Source of the DNA: Curtobacterium sp. ZW137
Lineage (GTDB): Bacteria; Actinomycetota; Actinomycetes; Actinomycetales; Microbacteriaceae
NCBI RefSeq assembly: GCF_003762905.1
Contig: NZ_RJKS01000001.1
Coordinates: 496,001 to 560,000, forward strand
Reading direction: 5' to 3'
Length of the DNA stretch: 64,000 bases
Of the stretch, positions 57,524 to 63,885 are shown piece by piece. The number at the start of each line of letters is the position of its first letter. The stretch's first letter is position 1. The notes below the pieces were generated by a model. It was not told the origin of the DNA and ran no database searches. It saw nothing but the letters and a program-made list of their open reading frames with translations. The position numbers and the translations under genes are program-made.

Positions 57524-57838
57524 CTAGCTCACGTCCGGTTCCACCGGGACCAGTTGACGACTCAGGACGGTCGCGCGCTCGAAGGGGCCGCGGCCGTCCT
57601 TCGTGTACACGGGCTCGTCGAAGGCGACGGTCCACGACAGCGGCTCGCCGACGCCCGGGTAGCCGACGATCTGGTTCCCGCCGGGTCCCACGACGACACC
57701 GACCAGGTCACCTGAGCCGTCGGCGTCCACCCACTGCTCGCCGCCGGTCGTGGCGTCGACGACGCGGACGAGCGCCCCGATCCCGAGCGCCCCGGGGGAC
57801 TCGTCGCCAGCGGGGGTTCGGCGCTTCCGGTTCCACAT
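57524..57838 (-). CDS. Small hypothetical protein
   Basis: A 104-residue soluble protein, with a short basic start (WNRKRRTPAG) and beta-rich sequence (GALVRVVDATTGGEQWVDAD, YPGVGEPLSWTVAFDE). No family is recognised; it is not JetD. The ATG at 57838 has GAGGCG upstream. Its 3' end abuts the 35-residue gene. The 18-bp tandem repeat before its start duplicates its TACGGT and GAGGCG region. Confidence 0.65.
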   Translation of the reverse strand: MWNRKRRTPAGDESPGALGIGALVRVVDATTGGEQWVDADGSGDLVGVVVGPGGNQIVGYPGVGEPLSWTVAFDEPVYTKDGRGPFERATVLSRQLVPVEPDVS

Positions 57839-57882: not shown

Positions 57883-57943
57883 GGTGAGATCGCACTTCGT
57901 GTCGGTGTCGCCCAGCGAAGGCGACAAGAAGTGCGATCTCACC
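57883..57943. terminator. Long nested inverted repeat after jetC
   Basis: 16-bp perfect arms GGTGAGATCGCACTTC / GAAGTGCGATCTCACC with an inner TGTCGCC / GGCGACA pair. The left arm has an extra GTGTCG. It lies 28 bases past the minus-strand JetC stop, so it may end that operon, though no T-tract is seen. It could also be a dispersed intergenic repeat. Confidence 0.6.
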
Positions 57944-57970: not shown

Positions 57971-60900
57971 TCAGGCGGACGCGCGGACGATCTCCGTCAC
58001 GGACGAGTAGCCCGTGTCGGGGTGCTTCCGCATCGACAGCAGGCGCTCCATCGACGGTTCGAGCGCGGTGACCTTGTCGAGCGGTGCACTCACCACGAGC
58101 TGGAACCCGAGCCGGAGCCACGCCGTCACGGCACGCCCGGCGAACTCCGAGTCCGCCTTGATGAACGCCTCGTCGAGGAACACCGGCGCGAACCGGGGCC
58201 GCGGCCGGGTCTCGTCGCCGAGCTGGTAGCGGAGCGCCGCCCCCACGATGAACGCGACGAGCTCCTGCGTCTCACCGCCGGACTTGTCGCCGAGGGACGA
58301 GTACACGCCGAGGTCGTTGCCCGCGGTGTCGTAGCGGACCGCGGTGATCTCCATGTGCCGCCGGACGTCGAGCACGGCGTCGCGCTGCGAGGCCCGCGCG
58401 CCACGGGGTGCGGACGGGTCCTGCCGGATGACCGCCATGAACCTCCGGAGCCGGCGGAACCGGGTCTCGAGCACGTCGTCGGTCAGCTCGGTGTCGACCG
58501 AGGCCGACAGGGCGCGGAGCTCCCGACGGAACTGCGTGACGTCCTCGCGGGTGACCCGGCGGATCACGATCTTCAGGCGGTCCCGGTTCGCCCCGAACGG
58601 CAGGTCCCGGAGGATCTCGTTGACCGGCTCGAGGCGCTCCTCGATCTCGACGACGGCGCGGTCGAAGGCGCCGGCGAGCGGGACGAGGTCCTCGCCGCTC
58701 CACTGCGACAGGCGTCGACGCCACTCGCTGCGGCGCGCGTGCAGCCCGGTCGCGACGATCTGGTCGAGGATCGCGCGGTAGTCCGGGTACGAGGCGACGC
58801 CGGTGCCGAGGTTCGGGTCGGGCCAGGCGTCCTGGTACCGCTGGAACGTCATCGTCAGCGCGTTGGCGGCCGACGCGGCGCCGTCGAGCGCCTGCGACAG
58901 GCGTTCTTCGAGCCGCCGCCGGAGCCGGCGGGTGGCGTCGTCGAAGCCGTCGACGCCGTCGGGAGCGCCGACCTCGTCGAAGGTCTCGGCCAGGAGCTGT
59001 GCCTGCTGGTCGTCGGGGAGCGACGCGGGGGAGTCGTCGAAGCGCGCCAGGATCTCCGCGGCGGCGTCCTGCCCGTCGACGAGTACCGCGTGCCGTTCCT
59101 CGAGCCGCTGCACGGTGAGCCGTGCGGCCGACCGACGATCGGCGGCCTCGTCGAGGGAGGTGCGGAGCCGCGCGACCGAGGCCCGGAGCGTCCGGAGCCC
59201 GTCGTCGGCGGCGAGCAGGGCCTCCCGCTCGGTCGAGAGCCGGTCGAGCGATGCCTCGATGCCCGCGACGTCGATGCCGTCCCACGTGGTGTCGACCAGG
59301 TGCTGGTGCGCCGCGCGGAGCTCGTCGAGCGCGGCGATGTCCTGCGCGACGTCGGTGCGCCGGGCCTCGAGCGTCGCGAGGTCCTGCGCGATCGCGGCGA
59401 GTTCGGTCTCGACGGCGACGACGCGGGCCTCGTTCGTGAAGCCGATGACGTTGGCCTGCCGACGGTCCCCGTGGGCACCGCGTCGGCCGTCGCGGAGCTG
59501 CCCGGACTCGGTGACCCGTCGGCCCCCGCCGCCGAGCTCCGACGCGGAGGACACGCAGCGGGCGTCGATCCGGTCCGACTCGATGCGGGAGCGGACCCAC
59601 GTGCTGAACGGGGAGTCCTTGATCGCGAGCTTGCCGGACACCATCGCCCGGTCGCCGTCGACGTCGAGGTGCGGGCCCGACGGCACGCCCTCGAACTGCA
59701 CGCGGACCGGGATGCGCAGGGCGTCGATGGCCGCGCTGAAGGAGTCGAGCTGGTCCTGGTCGACCAGGAGCGTGCGGGCGACGGGCGCGAGCACGGACTC
59801 GATCGCCGTGCGCCAGCGCTCCTCGCCGGGCAGCACGTCGAGGAGCTCCGCGACGAACGGCAGGTCGGCGGGGTCGAGTCCGGCGGCCTGGGCCATCGCG
59901 ACGCGGGCCTCGTGCATCGGCAGCGGCATCGCGCCCTGCCGGTGTTCGAGCGACTGCCGCTCCTGGCGGAGGGACCGCTCGCGGTCGAGCAGCGGGTACT
60001 CCTCGCGGGTCAGTGCGTCCCGTCGAGCGTCCAGCGAGGAGCGAGCCGCATCGAACGTCCCGAGGAACTCGTGCGAGGCGCGCTGCGCCGCGACGAACGA
60101 GGACTCCGAGGAGACCGTCACGTCGAGCGGAGCGGTCCGCGTGTCGAACGTGGCACGCGCCCGGGCGACCACGTCACGCTCCCGCGTCCGCCGGTCGATC
60201 CGGTCCTCGAGCTGCGCGAGGGCGTTGCCGCCGGAGTCCCGGAGCCGGGCCTCGGCCTCACGCAGCTCGATCTCGACGGCGGCGTGCCGGGCGGAGGCGG
60301 CCTCGACCTCGGCGCGTCCCGCGGTCCGGGAGCGGCTGTTCCGGGCGACCTCGTCGTCCAGGAGCTCGCGCTTCCGGGTCGCGGTCCAGTGCGCGAAGGG
60401 CGACACCTCGGACCCGGTGGCGATCCCGTCGAGCGCCGCGGCGGCCGAGCGGGACCGCTCGATCTCCAGGTGCAGCTCGGTGATGGGGGCGAGGATCCGG
60501 ACCTTCCGCTCCTCGGTGTCCATCGCCTCGTACGCCTCGTCGAGGGCGGAGAAGTGCGCGAGCGCACGGTCGGCGGCTTCGTAGGTGCCGGGCGTCTCGA
60601 GCACGAGCGACTTGTACAGCGAGTCGACCGTCGGCATGTGCTGCCCGGCCTGGATCCGCGCGAGCAGGCGCATCGCCCGGTTCCCGCCACCGGAGTCGCC
60701 GATCCCGAGCCGCGTCTGCAGCGTGTACGCGAGCTCCTGGTACGTGTCGCGGATCACGAGCCCGGGGACGCGTCCGGTCAGCTCGAGGTGGCTGAACCGG
60801 GAGGGTACGAAGTCCTCGAGCCGCCGCAGGTCGAAGTCGTCGTCGACCGTCGCCATGGTCATCTGGATGTCGCCGACGCCGCGCGCCCGCTTCGGCACGA

Positions 60901-61345
60901 TGTACGCGCGGAGCACCGTGAAGCGTCGCTCGTCGTCGTTGAGGAACGTCACCGCCACGGCGCCCCACGTCGCGGTGTCGTCGCCGCGCAGGTTCACGTC
61001 ACGCAGGGCACCGGACTCCGGGTCGCGCCGCGTGTCGATCTTGCCCCGCAGGTACGTCAGCAGGTTGCGCTGGTCGGCGCTCCGCGCACGCCCGGTGGTG
61101 GCGTCGTTCGACGCGCCGTTGAACGGCACGTCGGACGGCATCATCACCGCGAGGTACGCGTCCATCAGCGTGGACTTGCCCGTGCCGGACGCGCCGGAGA
61201 TCAGCGTCGCCGCGCCGGACAGCTCGATCTGGCGGTGTCCGTGGAAGCCGCCCCAGTTCACGACCTGCATGGACTGGGCGCGCCACTGCGCGACGGTGTC
61301 GAAGAGCGCCGGCATGCCGGCGGTGTCGATCCGGAAGTCGGTCAC
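57971..61345 (-). CDS. jetC: JetC / MksF-like SMC ATPase (MukB-like)
   Basis: An 1124-residue SMC-like ATPase. Walker A GASGTGKST is at residues 51-59. Long coiled-coil arms (about 270-480 and 640-820) flank a hinge (LPFVAELLDVLPGEERWRTA region). The signature SGGETQELVAF is at 1022-1032 and Walker B VFLDEAF at 1055-1061. This is the layout of MukB/MksF/JetC. It would extrude DNA loops with JetA and JetB; in Wadjet, JetD then cuts small circular DNA. GTG start overlaps the JetB stop (GTGA). Confidence 0.9.
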   Translation of the reverse strand: MTDFRIDTAGMPALFDTVAQWRAQSMQVVNWGGFHGHRQIELSGAATLISGASGTGKSTLMDAYLAVMMPSDVPFNGASNDATTGRARSADQRNLLTYLRGKIDTRRDPESGALRDVNLRGDDTATWGAVAVTFLNDDERRFTVLRAYIVPKRARGVGDIQMTMATVDDDFDLRRLEDFVPSRFSHLELTGRVPGLVIRDTYQELAYTLQTRLGIGDSGGGNRAMRLLARIQAGQHMPTVDSLYKSLVLETPGTYEAADRALAHFSALDEAYEAMDTEERKVRILAPITELHLEIERSRSAAAALDGIATGSEVSPFAHWTATRKRELLDDEVARNSRSRTAGRAEVEAASARHAAVEIELREAEARLRDSGGNALAQLEDRIDRRTRERDVVARARATFDTRTAPLDVTVSSESSFVAAQRASHEFLGTFDAARSSLDARRDALTREEYPLLDRERSLRQERQSLEHRQGAMPLPMHEARVAMAQAAGLDPADLPFVAELLDVLPGEERWRTAIESVLAPVARTLLVDQDQLDSFSAAIDALRIPVRVQFEGVPSGPHLDVDGDRAMVSGKLAIKDSPFSTWVRSRIESDRIDARCVSSASELGGGGRRVTESGQLRDGRRGAHGDRRQANVIGFTNEARVVAVETELAAIAQDLATLEARRTDVAQDIAALDELRAAHQHLVDTTWDGIDVAGIEASLDRLSTEREALLAADDGLRTLRASVARLRTSLDEAADRRSAARLTVQRLEERHAVLVDGQDAAAEILARFDDSPASLPDDQQAQLLAETFDEVGAPDGVDGFDDATRRLRRRLEERLSQALDGAASAANALTMTFQRYQDAWPDPNLGTGVASYPDYRAILDQIVATGLHARRSEWRRRLSQWSGEDLVPLAGAFDRAVVEIEERLEPVNEILRDLPFGANRDRLKIVIRRVTREDVTQFRRELRALSASVDTELTDDVLETRFRRLRRFMAVIRQDPSAPRGARASQRDAVLDVRRHMEITAVRYDTAGNDLGVYSSLGDKSGGETQELVAFIVGAALRYQLGDETRPRPRFAPVFLDEAFIKADSEFAGRAVTAWLRLGFQLVVSAPLDKVTALEPSMERLLSMRKHPDTGYSSVTEIVRASA

Positions 61346-62124
61346 GCGGACTCCTCCTCGTCGTCGTCATCGGCCTGGAGGCTCGGCTCGGCTCCGTCAG
61401 GCGCGTCCACCGGTGCGGTGGTCGCGTTCGACGACGCAGTGCTCGCCAACCACGTGTCCAGTTCCAGCAGCCGCTCCAGCGGGAGCAGGACCTCGACGAC
61501 GCTCGCCACCCGGAAGCGGTCCGGGTCGCTCGTCTTCAGCAGGACCCGCGCGGTGATCAGGCGCTCGATGGCCTTCGCGACCCGGCCCTCGTCGCGGGTG
61601 CGGTCGGTCGCGGTGGCCGGTCGGAAGCCAGCCACGTGCCCGAGGATCTCCGACCGGTCGACGACGACCTGGTCGGGGCCCGGCCGGGTGTCGGCACGGA
61701 GCCGCATCCGGAGGTAGACCAGGACGATCGTCTCCTCGCGCGTGTACGGCACGTCGCGGAGCAGCGTCGGGAAGCCGCGGCGCTGGCTCTCGGAGCGCGC
61801 CTGGCGCTTCCACGCCACCTCGCGGTCGCGGTCGACGTGCAGTTCCAGGAACAGGTCGTTCAGCCGGGACCGCAGTTGCCCTTCCGCATCGAGCACCGCG
61901 CGCCACTCGTCGGCGTGCGTCCGCGCGCTGACGTAGGAGTGCCGGAGCAGCGCGACGAGCGCGCGGCGCTGCGGTTCGTCGAGGCGACCCTCGTCGCCCT
62001 CGAAGAGGGCGAAGCTCGACTCGTCGCGCTCGTCCTCCTGCGGGACGGAGGCGGACTCGTCGAAGGGATCGATGCCGTCGAACGCGTCCGTGTCGTCGAC
62101 GTGGGATGCCGTCGTGTCGGTCAC
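61342..62124 (-). CDS. jetB: JetB / MksE-like protein (DUF4194)
   Basis: A 260-residue winged-helix KITE-type subunit of the DUF4194 family. An acidic N-terminus (about 45 residues) is followed by RRALVALLRHSYVSARTHAD, LRDVPYTREETIVLVYLRMR and AKAIERLITARVLLKTSD. KITE subunits dimerise and bind the kleisin and the SMC heads. The tail is Asp/Glu-rich. Its GTG overlaps the JetA stop and its stop overlaps the JetC GTG, fixing the operon order. Confidence 0.9.
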   Translation of the reverse strand: MTDTTASHVDDTDAFDGIDPFDESASVPQEDERDESSFALFEGDEGRLDEPQRRALVALLRHSYVSARTHADEWRAVLDAEGQLRSRLNDLFLELHVDRDREVAWKRQARSESQRRGFPTLLRDVPYTREETIVLVYLRMRLRADTRPGPDQVVVDRSEILGHVAGFRPATATDRTRDEGRVAKAIERLITARVLLKTSDPDRFRVASVVEVLLPLERLLELDTWLASTASSNATTAPVDAPDGAEPSLQADDDDEEESA

Positions 62125-63692
62125 CGGGCCTCCAGGGTGGTGCTGTCGTCGTCTGCCGGACGGTCCTCGGTGAGATCCGCCGTGGGCATGGTGAAGGTGA
62201 CCGCCGTGCCGTCCGGGCGCACCGTGTGGTGCGGGACGGCGGCGGCGGCGGTCTCGAAGTCGGTGTGGCCGGTGAGCAGGTGCGCGAGGCCGAACAGCTC
62301 GACCGGGCGACGCTGCTCCGGCGGCAGCGCGTGGAAGGCGCCGACGCTCGTGCCGGCACCGGCGGAGCGGAGCGCCTCGCGGAGCTCGACGAGCAGGGGG
62401 CCACCGTGGCGCCGGAGCGACTCGACGTCGATCTCGTCGAAGACGTCGTCGTCGGGTTCCTCGATGGGCGGCGGGACCGCCTCGGTGTCGGGGTCGTAGA
62501 AGCGTTCGCGGAGCGTGCCGACCTCGGCGACCGGGGGGAGGAGGCCGAGCGGGATGCGCTCCCGCGCACCACCGGACTCCATGAGCGCGGCCATCCGGCG
62601 GTTCACGCTACGGAGCACGGCGTCGAGCTCCCGGTCCCGGACGACGTCGTGCGCGACGATCTGGTCGCGGAGCGTGCCGGTGAGCAGGCGGCGCTGCGCG
62701 AGGACGTCCTCGATGCCCTGCCGGAGGATCACGACCGTGTTGCGGAACGTGCGGCGCTCGGCGGTGCTGAGCGACTCCGCGAAGGGATGGTCGAGGATCG
62801 TCGCGATGTCGTCCCGCAGGCGGAGGAGCAGGGCGTCGTCGCGGAGCAGCTCGAAGGCGCCCTCGAACGCGCGGCCCTCCGGCGTGGCCTCCATCAGGGT
62901 GTCCGTCCGCGCCAGGTAGTCGTCGAGGATCTCGCCGATCGGACGGACCTCGTTCCGGAAGTCCTCGACGATCTCGCGGTGCATCTTCGCCACCGCTTCC
63001 TCGACCCGCTTGAAGTCGCTCGGGAGCTGGCGGATCAGGTCGGTGATGTTCGTGTAGCCGTCGCGCATCCGGTCGTCGTCCACCGCGGTGGGCTCGTCCC
63101 CGCTGGCGAGACGATCACGTTCGGACTGCAGCTCGGCGATCTGTGCGTCGAGCCGGCGGATCTGCACGTCGGGGTCCGGCTCGGCGCGGGCGGCCCAGCG
63201 GTGCACGGCGTCGACGATCATCGCCAGGCGGCTCTCGCTGATGAGCGCCCGGTCCGAGGAGAGGGCGTCCACGAGGCTCAGCGCTTCGAGGGCGTGGCTC
63301 GTGAGGGAGTACTGCTCGTCGCCGTCGGGGGAGTTCGAGCGGACGAGCCACTGCGCTGCGACCCATTCGCGGCAGAGCGTGCGGCCGGTCGGCCTGGTGT
63401 CGGGCTCGTCCTGTTGTTCTTGCTGCTGCTGCTGCTGCGTGTGCTGGTGGTGCGTGTGGTGCTGTTGCTGTTGCTGTTGCTGGTGCTGTTGGTGCGTGTG
63501 TGCCTGCAGCCGGGCGACGTGCTCTTCGACCTGCAGGTGCATCCGGTCGGCGGGGACGTACTGCACGTCGCGGTCGAACACCGTGCGGAACACGGCGAGC
63601 ACCACCGCGCTCGTGGGGCGGGACATGAGGCGGAGCGTCGGGCGGTCGAGCACCGCGCGGACGCGGGAGTACTCGAGGTCGACGTCGGTCAT
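62121..63692 (-). CDS. jetA: JetA / MksB-like kleisin (DUF3375) with Gln/His-rich insert
   Basis: A 523-residue DUF3375 protein, the kleisin-like subunit of MksBEF/Wadjet. It starts MTDVDLEYSRVRAVLDRPTL, contains ITDLIRQLPSDFKRVEEAVA and EIVEDFRNEVRPIGEILDD, and ends with a winged-helix-like region. Residues 65-94 are an unusual Gln/His/Thr tract absent from typical homologues. It lies between two conserved parts, so it is probably a flexible loop. The ATG at 63692 fits the family start. Confidence 0.9.
   Translation of the reverse strand: MTDVDLEYSRVRAVLDRPTLRLMSRPTSAVVLAVFRTVFDRDVQYVPADRMHLQVEEHVARLQAHTHQQHQQQQQQQHHTHHQHTQQQQQQEQQDEPDTRPTGRTLCREWVAAQWLVRSNSPDGDEQYSLTSHALEALSLVDALSSDRALISESRLAMIVDAVHRWAARAEPDPDVQIRRLDAQIAELQSERDRLASGDEPTAVDDDRMRDGYTNITDLIRQLPSDFKRVEEAVAKMHREIVEDFRNEVRPIGEILDDYLARTDTLMEATPEGRAFEGAFELLRDDALLLRLRDDIATILDHPFAESLSTAERRTFRNTVVILRQGIEDVLAQRRLLTGTLRDQIVAHDVVRDRELDAVLRSVNRRMAALMESGGARERIPLGLLPPVAEVGTLRERFYDPDTEAVPPPIEEPDDDVFDEIDVESLRRHGGPLLVELREALRSAGAGTSVGAFHALPPEQRRPVELFGLAHLLTGHTDFETAAAAVPHHTVRPDGTAVTFTMPTADLTEDRPADDDSTTLEAR
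63411..63500. repeat. CAG/CAC-rich microsatellite inside jetA
   Basis: Ninety bases of CAG, CAA and CAC-type codons (CTG/TTG/GTG on the plus strand) encode the Gln/His tract of JetA. All units are 3 bases, so slippage would add or remove residues without a frameshift. The codon mix is unlike the rest of the gene. Confidence 0.85.
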
Positions 63693-63725: not shown

Positions 63726-63759
63726 CAAAGAGCCCGACGCGATTGCGCCGGGCTCTTTG
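63726..63759 (-). terminator. Terminator of the tRNA-Val gene
   Basis: CAAAGAGCCCG and its complement form an 11-bp stem with a 12-base loop. On the minus strand the stem ends in CTCTTTG, a short T-run, 54 bases past the tRNA. It separates the tRNA from jetA. Confidence 0.72.
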
Positions 63760-63812
63760 TGCACTGCAGGTGTTCTTGCAGTGGGTGGTTCTTCAGGCCC
63801 TGAATGGGCACG

Positions 63813-63885
63813 TGGGCGATACCAGACTCGAACTGATGACCTCTTCGGTGTGAACGAAGCGCGCTACCAACTGCGCCAATCGCCC
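63813..63885 (-). tRNA. tRNA-Val (anticodon CAC)
   Basis: A 73-base tRNA on the minus strand. The 7-bp acceptor GGGCGAT/ATCGCCC, D-arm with AGTTGGTA, anticodon stem CTTCG/CGAAG and loop TTCACAC (anticodon CAC, reading GUG), and T-arm with TTCGAGT are all present. The discriminator is A, and CCA is not encoded. No integrase or attachment duplication is seen beside it. Confidence 0.95.

Follow-up and report, generated by a model that had tools for sequence, protein, structure and literature searches.

Can chromosome-folding complexes of the MukBEF/MksBEF type originate from plasmid-defence systems? The question is raised by a three-gene operon, jetABC, in a 64,000-nucleotide stretch of DNA from Curtobacterium sp. 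ZW137 (contig NZ_RJKS01000001.1, positions 496,001 to 560,000; hereafter the window). The operon carries the intact core of a type I Wadjet without jetD, the gene for the nuclease subunit. We consider it probable that jetABC encodes a second, nuclease-free MksBEF-like condensin. Such a complex is predicted to extrude loops from the DNA that it entraps, probably that of the chromosome, and would have arisen from a JetABCD system by loss of the nuclease.

The identity of the three genes is clear. They lie in Wadjet order with short overlaps, as the initial annotation had it; the coordinates proved exact, the genes are intact and neighbouring genes share 4 bases at each junction. The jetA gene runs from an ATG at 63692 to a stop at 62121, and its open reading frame (ORF) is itself open further upstream, to 63764. 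In Pfam, JetA matches DUF3375 (315 bits), JetB matches DUF4194 (112 bits) and JetC matches the SbcC Walker B and AAA_29 families, while the match of MukB to JetC is weak (30 bits) and limited to the JetC N-terminus. The best PADLOC models are those of type I Wadjet for all three proteins (JetA1, 598 bits; JetB1, 370 bits; JetC1, 1379 bits). Among proteins of known structure, the JetA chains of PDB entries 8dk1, 8q72 and 8as8 are sequence matches to the JetA of the window, and its JetC matches the JetC of 8dk2 at E=3e-51. JetB as a single query found no PDB match; a profile of 12 JetB sequences matched the JetB of 8as8 and 8dk1, and the IFDR motif published for JetB could not be located. JetC contains the strings GASGTGKS, KSGGE and FLDEAF, which we take to be the Walker A, signature and Walker B motifs, respectively. 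The locus has the core of a type I Wadjet, that is, DUF3375, DUF4194 and a MukB-like protein encoded in one operon. A separate feature of this JetA is a long glutamine/histidine run at about residues 65-95 (63408-63500, CAG/CAC-like repeats), which stands in place of the short variable linker of the genus and was seen in 0 of the 21 other genus JetA proteins compared.

The position that JetD would occupy can be predicted closely. In 22 JetD-bearing loci of the family, JetD starts between -42 and +11 relative to the jetC stop, and at -3 in 12 of them. The window has no same-strand ORF of at least 50 amino acids starting before +76, where the first one begins, and an ORF overlapping the jetC end occurs in 3 of 53 JetD-less loci (window included) and is short (71-136 amino acids). 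The initial annotation was thus right that no JetD follows JetC. Its further suggestion, that JetD might be encoded elsewhere, is not borne out by the whole genome (3.90 Mb, 9 contigs, completeness 100), which has no JetD_C (PF09983) match at E<=0.001 and no DUF3322 (PF11795) match at E<=10; Corynebacterium glutamicum, the positive control, is matched by both, and three other controls also match at a loose cut-off. Across the genus, profile searches found DUF3375 in 63 of 66 genomes and JetD_C in one. In this one genome (G002) there are two JetA; JetD lies 5.2 kb from one of them, and the other is JetD-less. Its second locus (L011) is a complete JetABCD Wadjet alongside the JetD-less operon, so both kinds can coexist.

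A JetD that exists in the cell but has diverged, is split or was left out of the assembly could give the same picture, and the JetD_C scores of relatives do spread widely, from 23.5 to 189 bits. Yet absence extends to 65 of 66 genomes, single-contig ones included, and the flanks past jetC are contiguous and syntenic, which also speaks against the idea that JetD was lost by assembly error alone. Moreover, a family-specific profile built from 23 JetD sequences had no hit at E<10 in the JetD-less family loci, and a divergent JetD beside jetC was rejected on this ground. An artefact of this sort is scarcely credible. Short tblastn matches of JetD ORFs at the jetC end (many JetD-less loci are among the matches listed) were set aside as artefacts, because the query ORFs of L038/L135 and L025 begin upstream, in another frame of jetC; one weak match (L116; 32% identity, E=2e-4) is a long way upstream of where jetC ends. 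To judge from the sequence, neither the operon nor the genome holds the nuclease that a type I Wadjet includes.

Lack of the nuclease is common among relatives. In a family sample of 249 genomes, DUF3375 was found in 59 genomes, with 58 passing the cut-off, while 26 genomes have JetD_C. Of the 58 loci fetched, 54 were intact with enough sequence after jetC, and 32 of these are without JetD and 22 with it; those left out were partial, three with no JetD seen (L009, L043, L060) and one JetD-bearing (L059). Among the best 80 of 429 named loci, ranked by likeness to the window, JetD is present in 9, absent from 65 and not judgeable in 6. Within these 80, it accompanies 0 of 28 testable loci in Curtobacterium, 0/27 in Cryobacterium, 2/2 in Glaciihabitans, 1/1 each in Lentzea, Aeromicrobium, Nonomuraea, Sinosporangium and Virgisporangium, and 1/2 each in Kineosporia and Nocardioides. 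In an order sample of 297 genomes, DUF3375 was found in 123 and JetD_C in 66; outside the family of the window, JetD_C lies within 9 kb of 58 of 127 DUF3375 loci, a co-location judged by distance alone, which misreads dispersed genes.

How did this patchiness arise? A JetC tree with 75 rows places the window among the 22 rows of a genus clade that is JetD-less throughout; JetD-bearing relatives lie on several sides of this clade, and the tree needs at least 6 changes of the JetD state. A second tree, of 47 rows and including named outgroups, needs at least 9, of which well supported branches force 7; both trees come from quick searches, their branches are long and their root is arbitrary. When JetD and JetC of 17 loci are each put in a tree, the groups largely match. 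Pairwise distances agree too: r is 0.92 for the 17 loci, a value reached in 0 of 5000 permutations, and 0.74 for the inner 10, reached in 3 of 5000. This indicates that JetD was seldom swapped and travelled with JetC where present. Given that JetD-less loci recur among JetD-bearing relatives and that the two trees agree, loss of the nuclease is the simplest history. The patchy absence of JetD is therefore most simply explained by repeated loss, although its direction, loss rather than gain, is something that we infer. In line with these trees, the suggestion that the locus is a Wadjet that lost its effector fits as far as descent is concerned; what does not fit is a recent defect or an assembly error, as the loss is old and genus-wide.

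Two Kineosporia genomes have near-identical JetC, one with JetD and one without; comparing L172 with L175, the flank resumes at 85% identity past the JetD position, where L175 has about 1.7 kb of other sequence. No JetD remnant was found in two close pairs, the best JetD matches in L023 and L175 being at E 0.06 and 0.03. Three JetD proteins whose close relatives lost JetD (L022, L038, L146) sit on branches of 0.5-0.97, against about 0.2 for JetC. They look as if the constraint on JetD had already relaxed, although in L022 and L038 ORF starts set too far upstream may exaggerate these lengths.

In Curtobacterium the operon has been kept, and kept in place. JetA occurs in 60 of 62 high-quality genomes; across the genus, it is fragmented in G010 (65% complete) and G064 and absent from G065 (73% complete). 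The site was compared in 22 JetD-less loci, window included, from the 63 genomes with JetA. This synteny check, proposed in the initial annotation, revealed a shared site: the upstream cluster of transfer RNA (tRNA) genes, tRNA-Val(cac), -Gly, -Cys and -Val(gac), is common to 22/22 loci, and a downstream acyl-CoA oxidase gene is found in 21/22, the contig of the remaining one ending first. A peptide transporter gene occurs in 19/22 and a 104-amino-acid protein gene in 20/22. In two high-quality genomes that lack jetABC (G043, G044), the tRNA cluster and the oxidase gene are likewise there, separated by about 1.4 kb, a stretch in which neither the 104-amino-acid gene nor the transporter gene was found. 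Of 18 contig starts read, 12 are dnaA-first, and 11 of those genomes carry the operon; jetA lies at 0.463-0.499 of the main contig in all 11 (one or two contigs each), near the presumed terminus. Because the site is inherited, this position counts as one observation and not as eleven; GC skew across the window, as a marker of the terminus, was flat and noisy. ScpA was found in 65 of 66 Curtobacterium genomes and in 62/62 high-quality ones. Since SMC-ScpAB is also present, jetABC would be a second condensin, and a replacement of SMC-ScpAB of the MukBEF kind was rejected.

The genes themselves show no sign of decay. Over the 22 genus loci (231 pairs per gene), the median ratio of non-synonymous to synonymous substitution rates (dN/dS) is 0.22 for JetA, 0.25 for JetB and 0.15 for JetC, next to 0.21 and 0.18 for two flanking metabolic genes; there are no internal stops in the aligned genus jet genes. 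The operon is under purifying selection, like its metabolic neighbours. This bears on the view that it is a relic, an effector-less Wadjet that is decaying or neutral. JetD is gone and two genomes do without the whole block, as a relic would allow, but the low dN/dS, the open frames, the three ATPase motifs (Walker A, signature, Walker B) seen in all 52 JetD-less JetC proteins checked and the near-universal JetA all run counter to it, and we hold it to be highly improbable.

A second JetD-less genus, g96 of another family (f12), takes the argument further. All 18 JetA-bearing g96 genomes of the order sample (L181-L198) were examined. JetC is present in 18/18, without internal stops and 82-87% identical to the query (the query's own genome aside). 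The genes are scattered: jetB lies 0.4-8.5 kb from jetA where it falls within the fetched stretch (13/18), and jetC lies 5.0-76.8 kb from jetA, on the same strand, in 16/16 genomes with both on one contig. For example, transporter genes separate jetA from jetB in L181, and siderophore-uptake genes separate jetB from jetC in L183. JetD_C is absent from 15 of the 18 genomes; in two it lies beside a second JetC copy, and in one (G554) there is a weak partial match alone. Genes that are kept though scattered have ceased to be a transferable defence unit, a point in favour of a housekeeping role. Not being consecutive, they would also escape a search that requires consecutive hits.

What, then, would such a complex do? 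Its putative parts fit a nuclease-free condensin: SMC, kleisin and KITE subunits encoded in one operon, intact ATPase motifs, and no MksG/JetD. JetA and JetB would complete a ring with a JetC dimer, and the entrapment of DNA and the extrusion of loops would be powered by ATP cycles, in the manner of Wadjet and MukBEF. With JetD missing, no cut would follow once extrusion ends, and the complex would act on whatever DNA gets loaded, chiefly the chromosome, next to SMC-ScpAB. Assembly, extrusion and action on the chromosome are proposed here by analogy with the protein families. A chromosome-organising MksBEF is the best functional reading, on the strength of precedent, intact motors and purifying selection.

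The precedent comes from known systems. With type I Wadjet (JetABCD, MksBEFG or EptABCD) the Curtobacterium operon shares the JetA, JetB and JetC families and their order; unlike it, the operon has no JetD in operon or genome and has a strong hairpin past jetC. Pseudomonas aeruginosa PAO1 MksBEF is likewise a MukB-like condensin without a nuclease, beside SMC, and is described as acting in chromosome segregation (PMC7485682); according to the same source, losing MksB delays bulk segregation, and cells do not survive the combined loss of MksB, SMC and ParB. It is the closest precedent with experimental tests. That system is likened to ours by description rather than by sequence; in the JetC tree, the Curtobacterium genes fall in a clade of actinobacterial type I Wadjets and have relatives that bear JetD. 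Escherichia coli MukBEF is also a kleisin-KITE-SMC complex without MksG/JetD (PMC7617805), but it apparently replaced SMC-ScpAB (PMC10586767), whereas Curtobacterium has ScpA. C. glutamicum MksBEFG is actinobacterial and coexists with SMC-ScpAB, as here, but it has MksG and is reported to act on plasmids and not in chromosome folding (PMC7083940, PMC10123090).

Several observations weigh against a chromosomal role. In genus g91, JetD is present in 17 of 18 loci, so genus-wide keeping is not peculiar to JetD-less loci, and dN/dS there (JetA 0.19, JetB 0.23, JetC 0.24; saturated pairs excluded, leaving 115 of 153 for JetA, 110 for JetB, 117 for JetC and 47 of 136 for JetD) is similar to that of the JetD-less genus. 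That is, JetD-bearing and JetD-less genera show no clear difference in dN/dS. Nor was clear decay of a JetD-docking surface seen: sites conserved in the JetD-less set alone against the JetD-bearing set alone number 24 vs 1 in JetA, 12 vs 4 in JetB and 45 vs 27 in JetC, in a comparison of 15 JetD-less with 9 JetD-bearing sequences (8 for JetC) in which the JetD-bearing set is the more diverse. The whole block is dispensable, being missing from two of the 62 high-quality genomes, and jetABC is not the only condensin, given ScpA in 65 of the 66 genus genomes. Finally, the JetD-bearing homologue of C. glutamicum is reported not to fold the chromosome (PMC7083940).

A different role for the same motor would be plasmid control without a nuclease, in which JetABC would still detect small circular DNA but compact, silence or sequester it instead of cutting it. 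The JetABC core is described as the shape sensor of Wadjet (PMC10586767) and is intact in Curtobacterium, related JetD-bearing loci belong to a defence family, and Smc5/6, which silences some viral genomes, offers a parallel case (PMC7617805). On the other hand, plasmid control depended on the nuclease subunit where it was tested, in Bacillus subtilis and C. glutamicum (PMC10586767, PMC10123090), and a shared chromosomal site together with gene dispersal in g96 is unlike a mobile defence unit. We regard this alternative as unlikely, if worth keeping in mind, and favour the chromosomal condensin.

The sequence on either side of the operon is summarized together with the genes below.

Features of the jetABC locus (positions in the window)
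Positions	Strand	Feature	Basis
57524..57838	-	gene for 104-amino-acid protein, past the hairpin; Curtobacterium lineage, predicted all-beta small barrel, not JetD-like	
57883..57943	-	hairpin past jetC; likely terminator of the three-gene operon	inverted repeat, folding against shuffles
57971..61345	-	jetC / mksB, SMC-like ATPase, 1124 amino acids	ORF coordinates, Pfam, PADLOC, motifs, PDB
61342..61345	-	4-base overlap, jetB stop / jetC start	coordinates
61342..62124	-	jetB / mksE, KITE subunit, 260 amino acids, DUF4194	ORF coordinates, Pfam, PADLOC
62121..62124	-	4-base overlap, jetA stop / jetB start	coordinates
62121..63692	-	jetA / mksF, kleisin subunit, 523 amino acids, DUF3375	ORF coordinates, Pfam, PADLOC, PDB
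63726..63759	-	hairpin between tRNA-Val and jetA; likely tRNA terminator	inverted-repeat list
63812..63885	-	tRNA-Val(cac), next to jetA on its upstream side; further out tRNA-Gly, -Cys and -Val(gac)	

As first described, jetC is followed by an inverted repeat and then by a small unrelated gene. The arms of the repeat (57883-57911 and 57915-57943) are 86% complementary, and the hairpin folds at -43.4 kcal/mol (z -7.8), with 0 of 200 shuffles folding as well. Refolded in 11 Curtobacterium relatives, in stretches preselected by energy, the hairpin beats all 200 shuffles in 6; in the other five, 1, 6, 44, 63 and 70 of 200 shuffles are equally good. A repeated element was considered and set aside: the core occurs once in the window and its exact form in 3 of 180 loci, a rarity that makes a terminator likelier. 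The hairpin is likely the transcription terminator of jetABC.

The gene beyond it matters for another possibility, namely that JetABC recruits some other nuclease or topoisomerase in trans and remains a cutting defence with an unlinked, unrelated effector. Such docking is known from MukB with topoisomerase IV and from MksF with MksG (PMC10123090), and the 104-amino-acid neighbour is conserved in Curtobacterium. This neighbour, however, lies past the hairpin and has no Pfam, PADLOC or NCBIfam match (searched with a longer ORF containing the gene). It has 53 database relatives, and the organism-named ones are all from Curtobacterium except one Microbacteriaceae metagenome protein. Structure prediction gives a small beta barrel at moderate confidence (best model with a predicted local distance difference test score, pLDDT, of 71 and a predicted template modelling score of 0.61; five models at pLDDT 46-71). 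As a replacement effector it was rejected on its place past the hairpin, its lineage and the predicted barrel, for which no fold search was run. In addition, ORFs overlapping the jetC end are as rare and short as noted above, and the genome lacks JetD_C and DUF3322, a search that did not extend to unrelated nuclease families. An effector in trans is, in our estimation, quite improbable, and a nuclease-free condensin is still the reading that we prefer.

JetD-less operons of the Wadjet group are a known kind and already in print. Several members of the Wadjet group are stated to lack MksG/JetD in PMC7617805, which also describes a census of operons in which MksB, MksF and MksE hits follow one another; Curtobacterium loci may already be inside that census. 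Literature searches (Wadjet with Curtobacterium; absent JetD or MksG) turned up no account of the Curtobacterium operon. Within the reach of these searches, what is added here are actinobacterial cases that span whole genera, the recurrent loss of JetD and the dispersal of the genes.

These findings have two practical consequences. With 32 of 54 intact loci of the family sample lacking the nuclease, counts that take jetA-C as 'Wadjet defence' would overcount defence. Moreover, because related lineages differ in the nuclease (Cryobacterium without and Glaciihabitans with JetD, and the Kineosporia pair), a switch from defence to housekeeping is directly testable. More broadly, the chances seem to us evenly balanced that Wadjet motors have been repeatedly domesticated into housekeeping condensins in actinobacteria, with the nuclease lost, the motor kept genus-wide (in Curtobacterium, Cryobacterium, Plantibacter and others) and the operon dispersed in at least one genus, where jetA and jetC lie up to 77 kb apart. 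Defence would then be a recurrent source of chromosome-folding machines.

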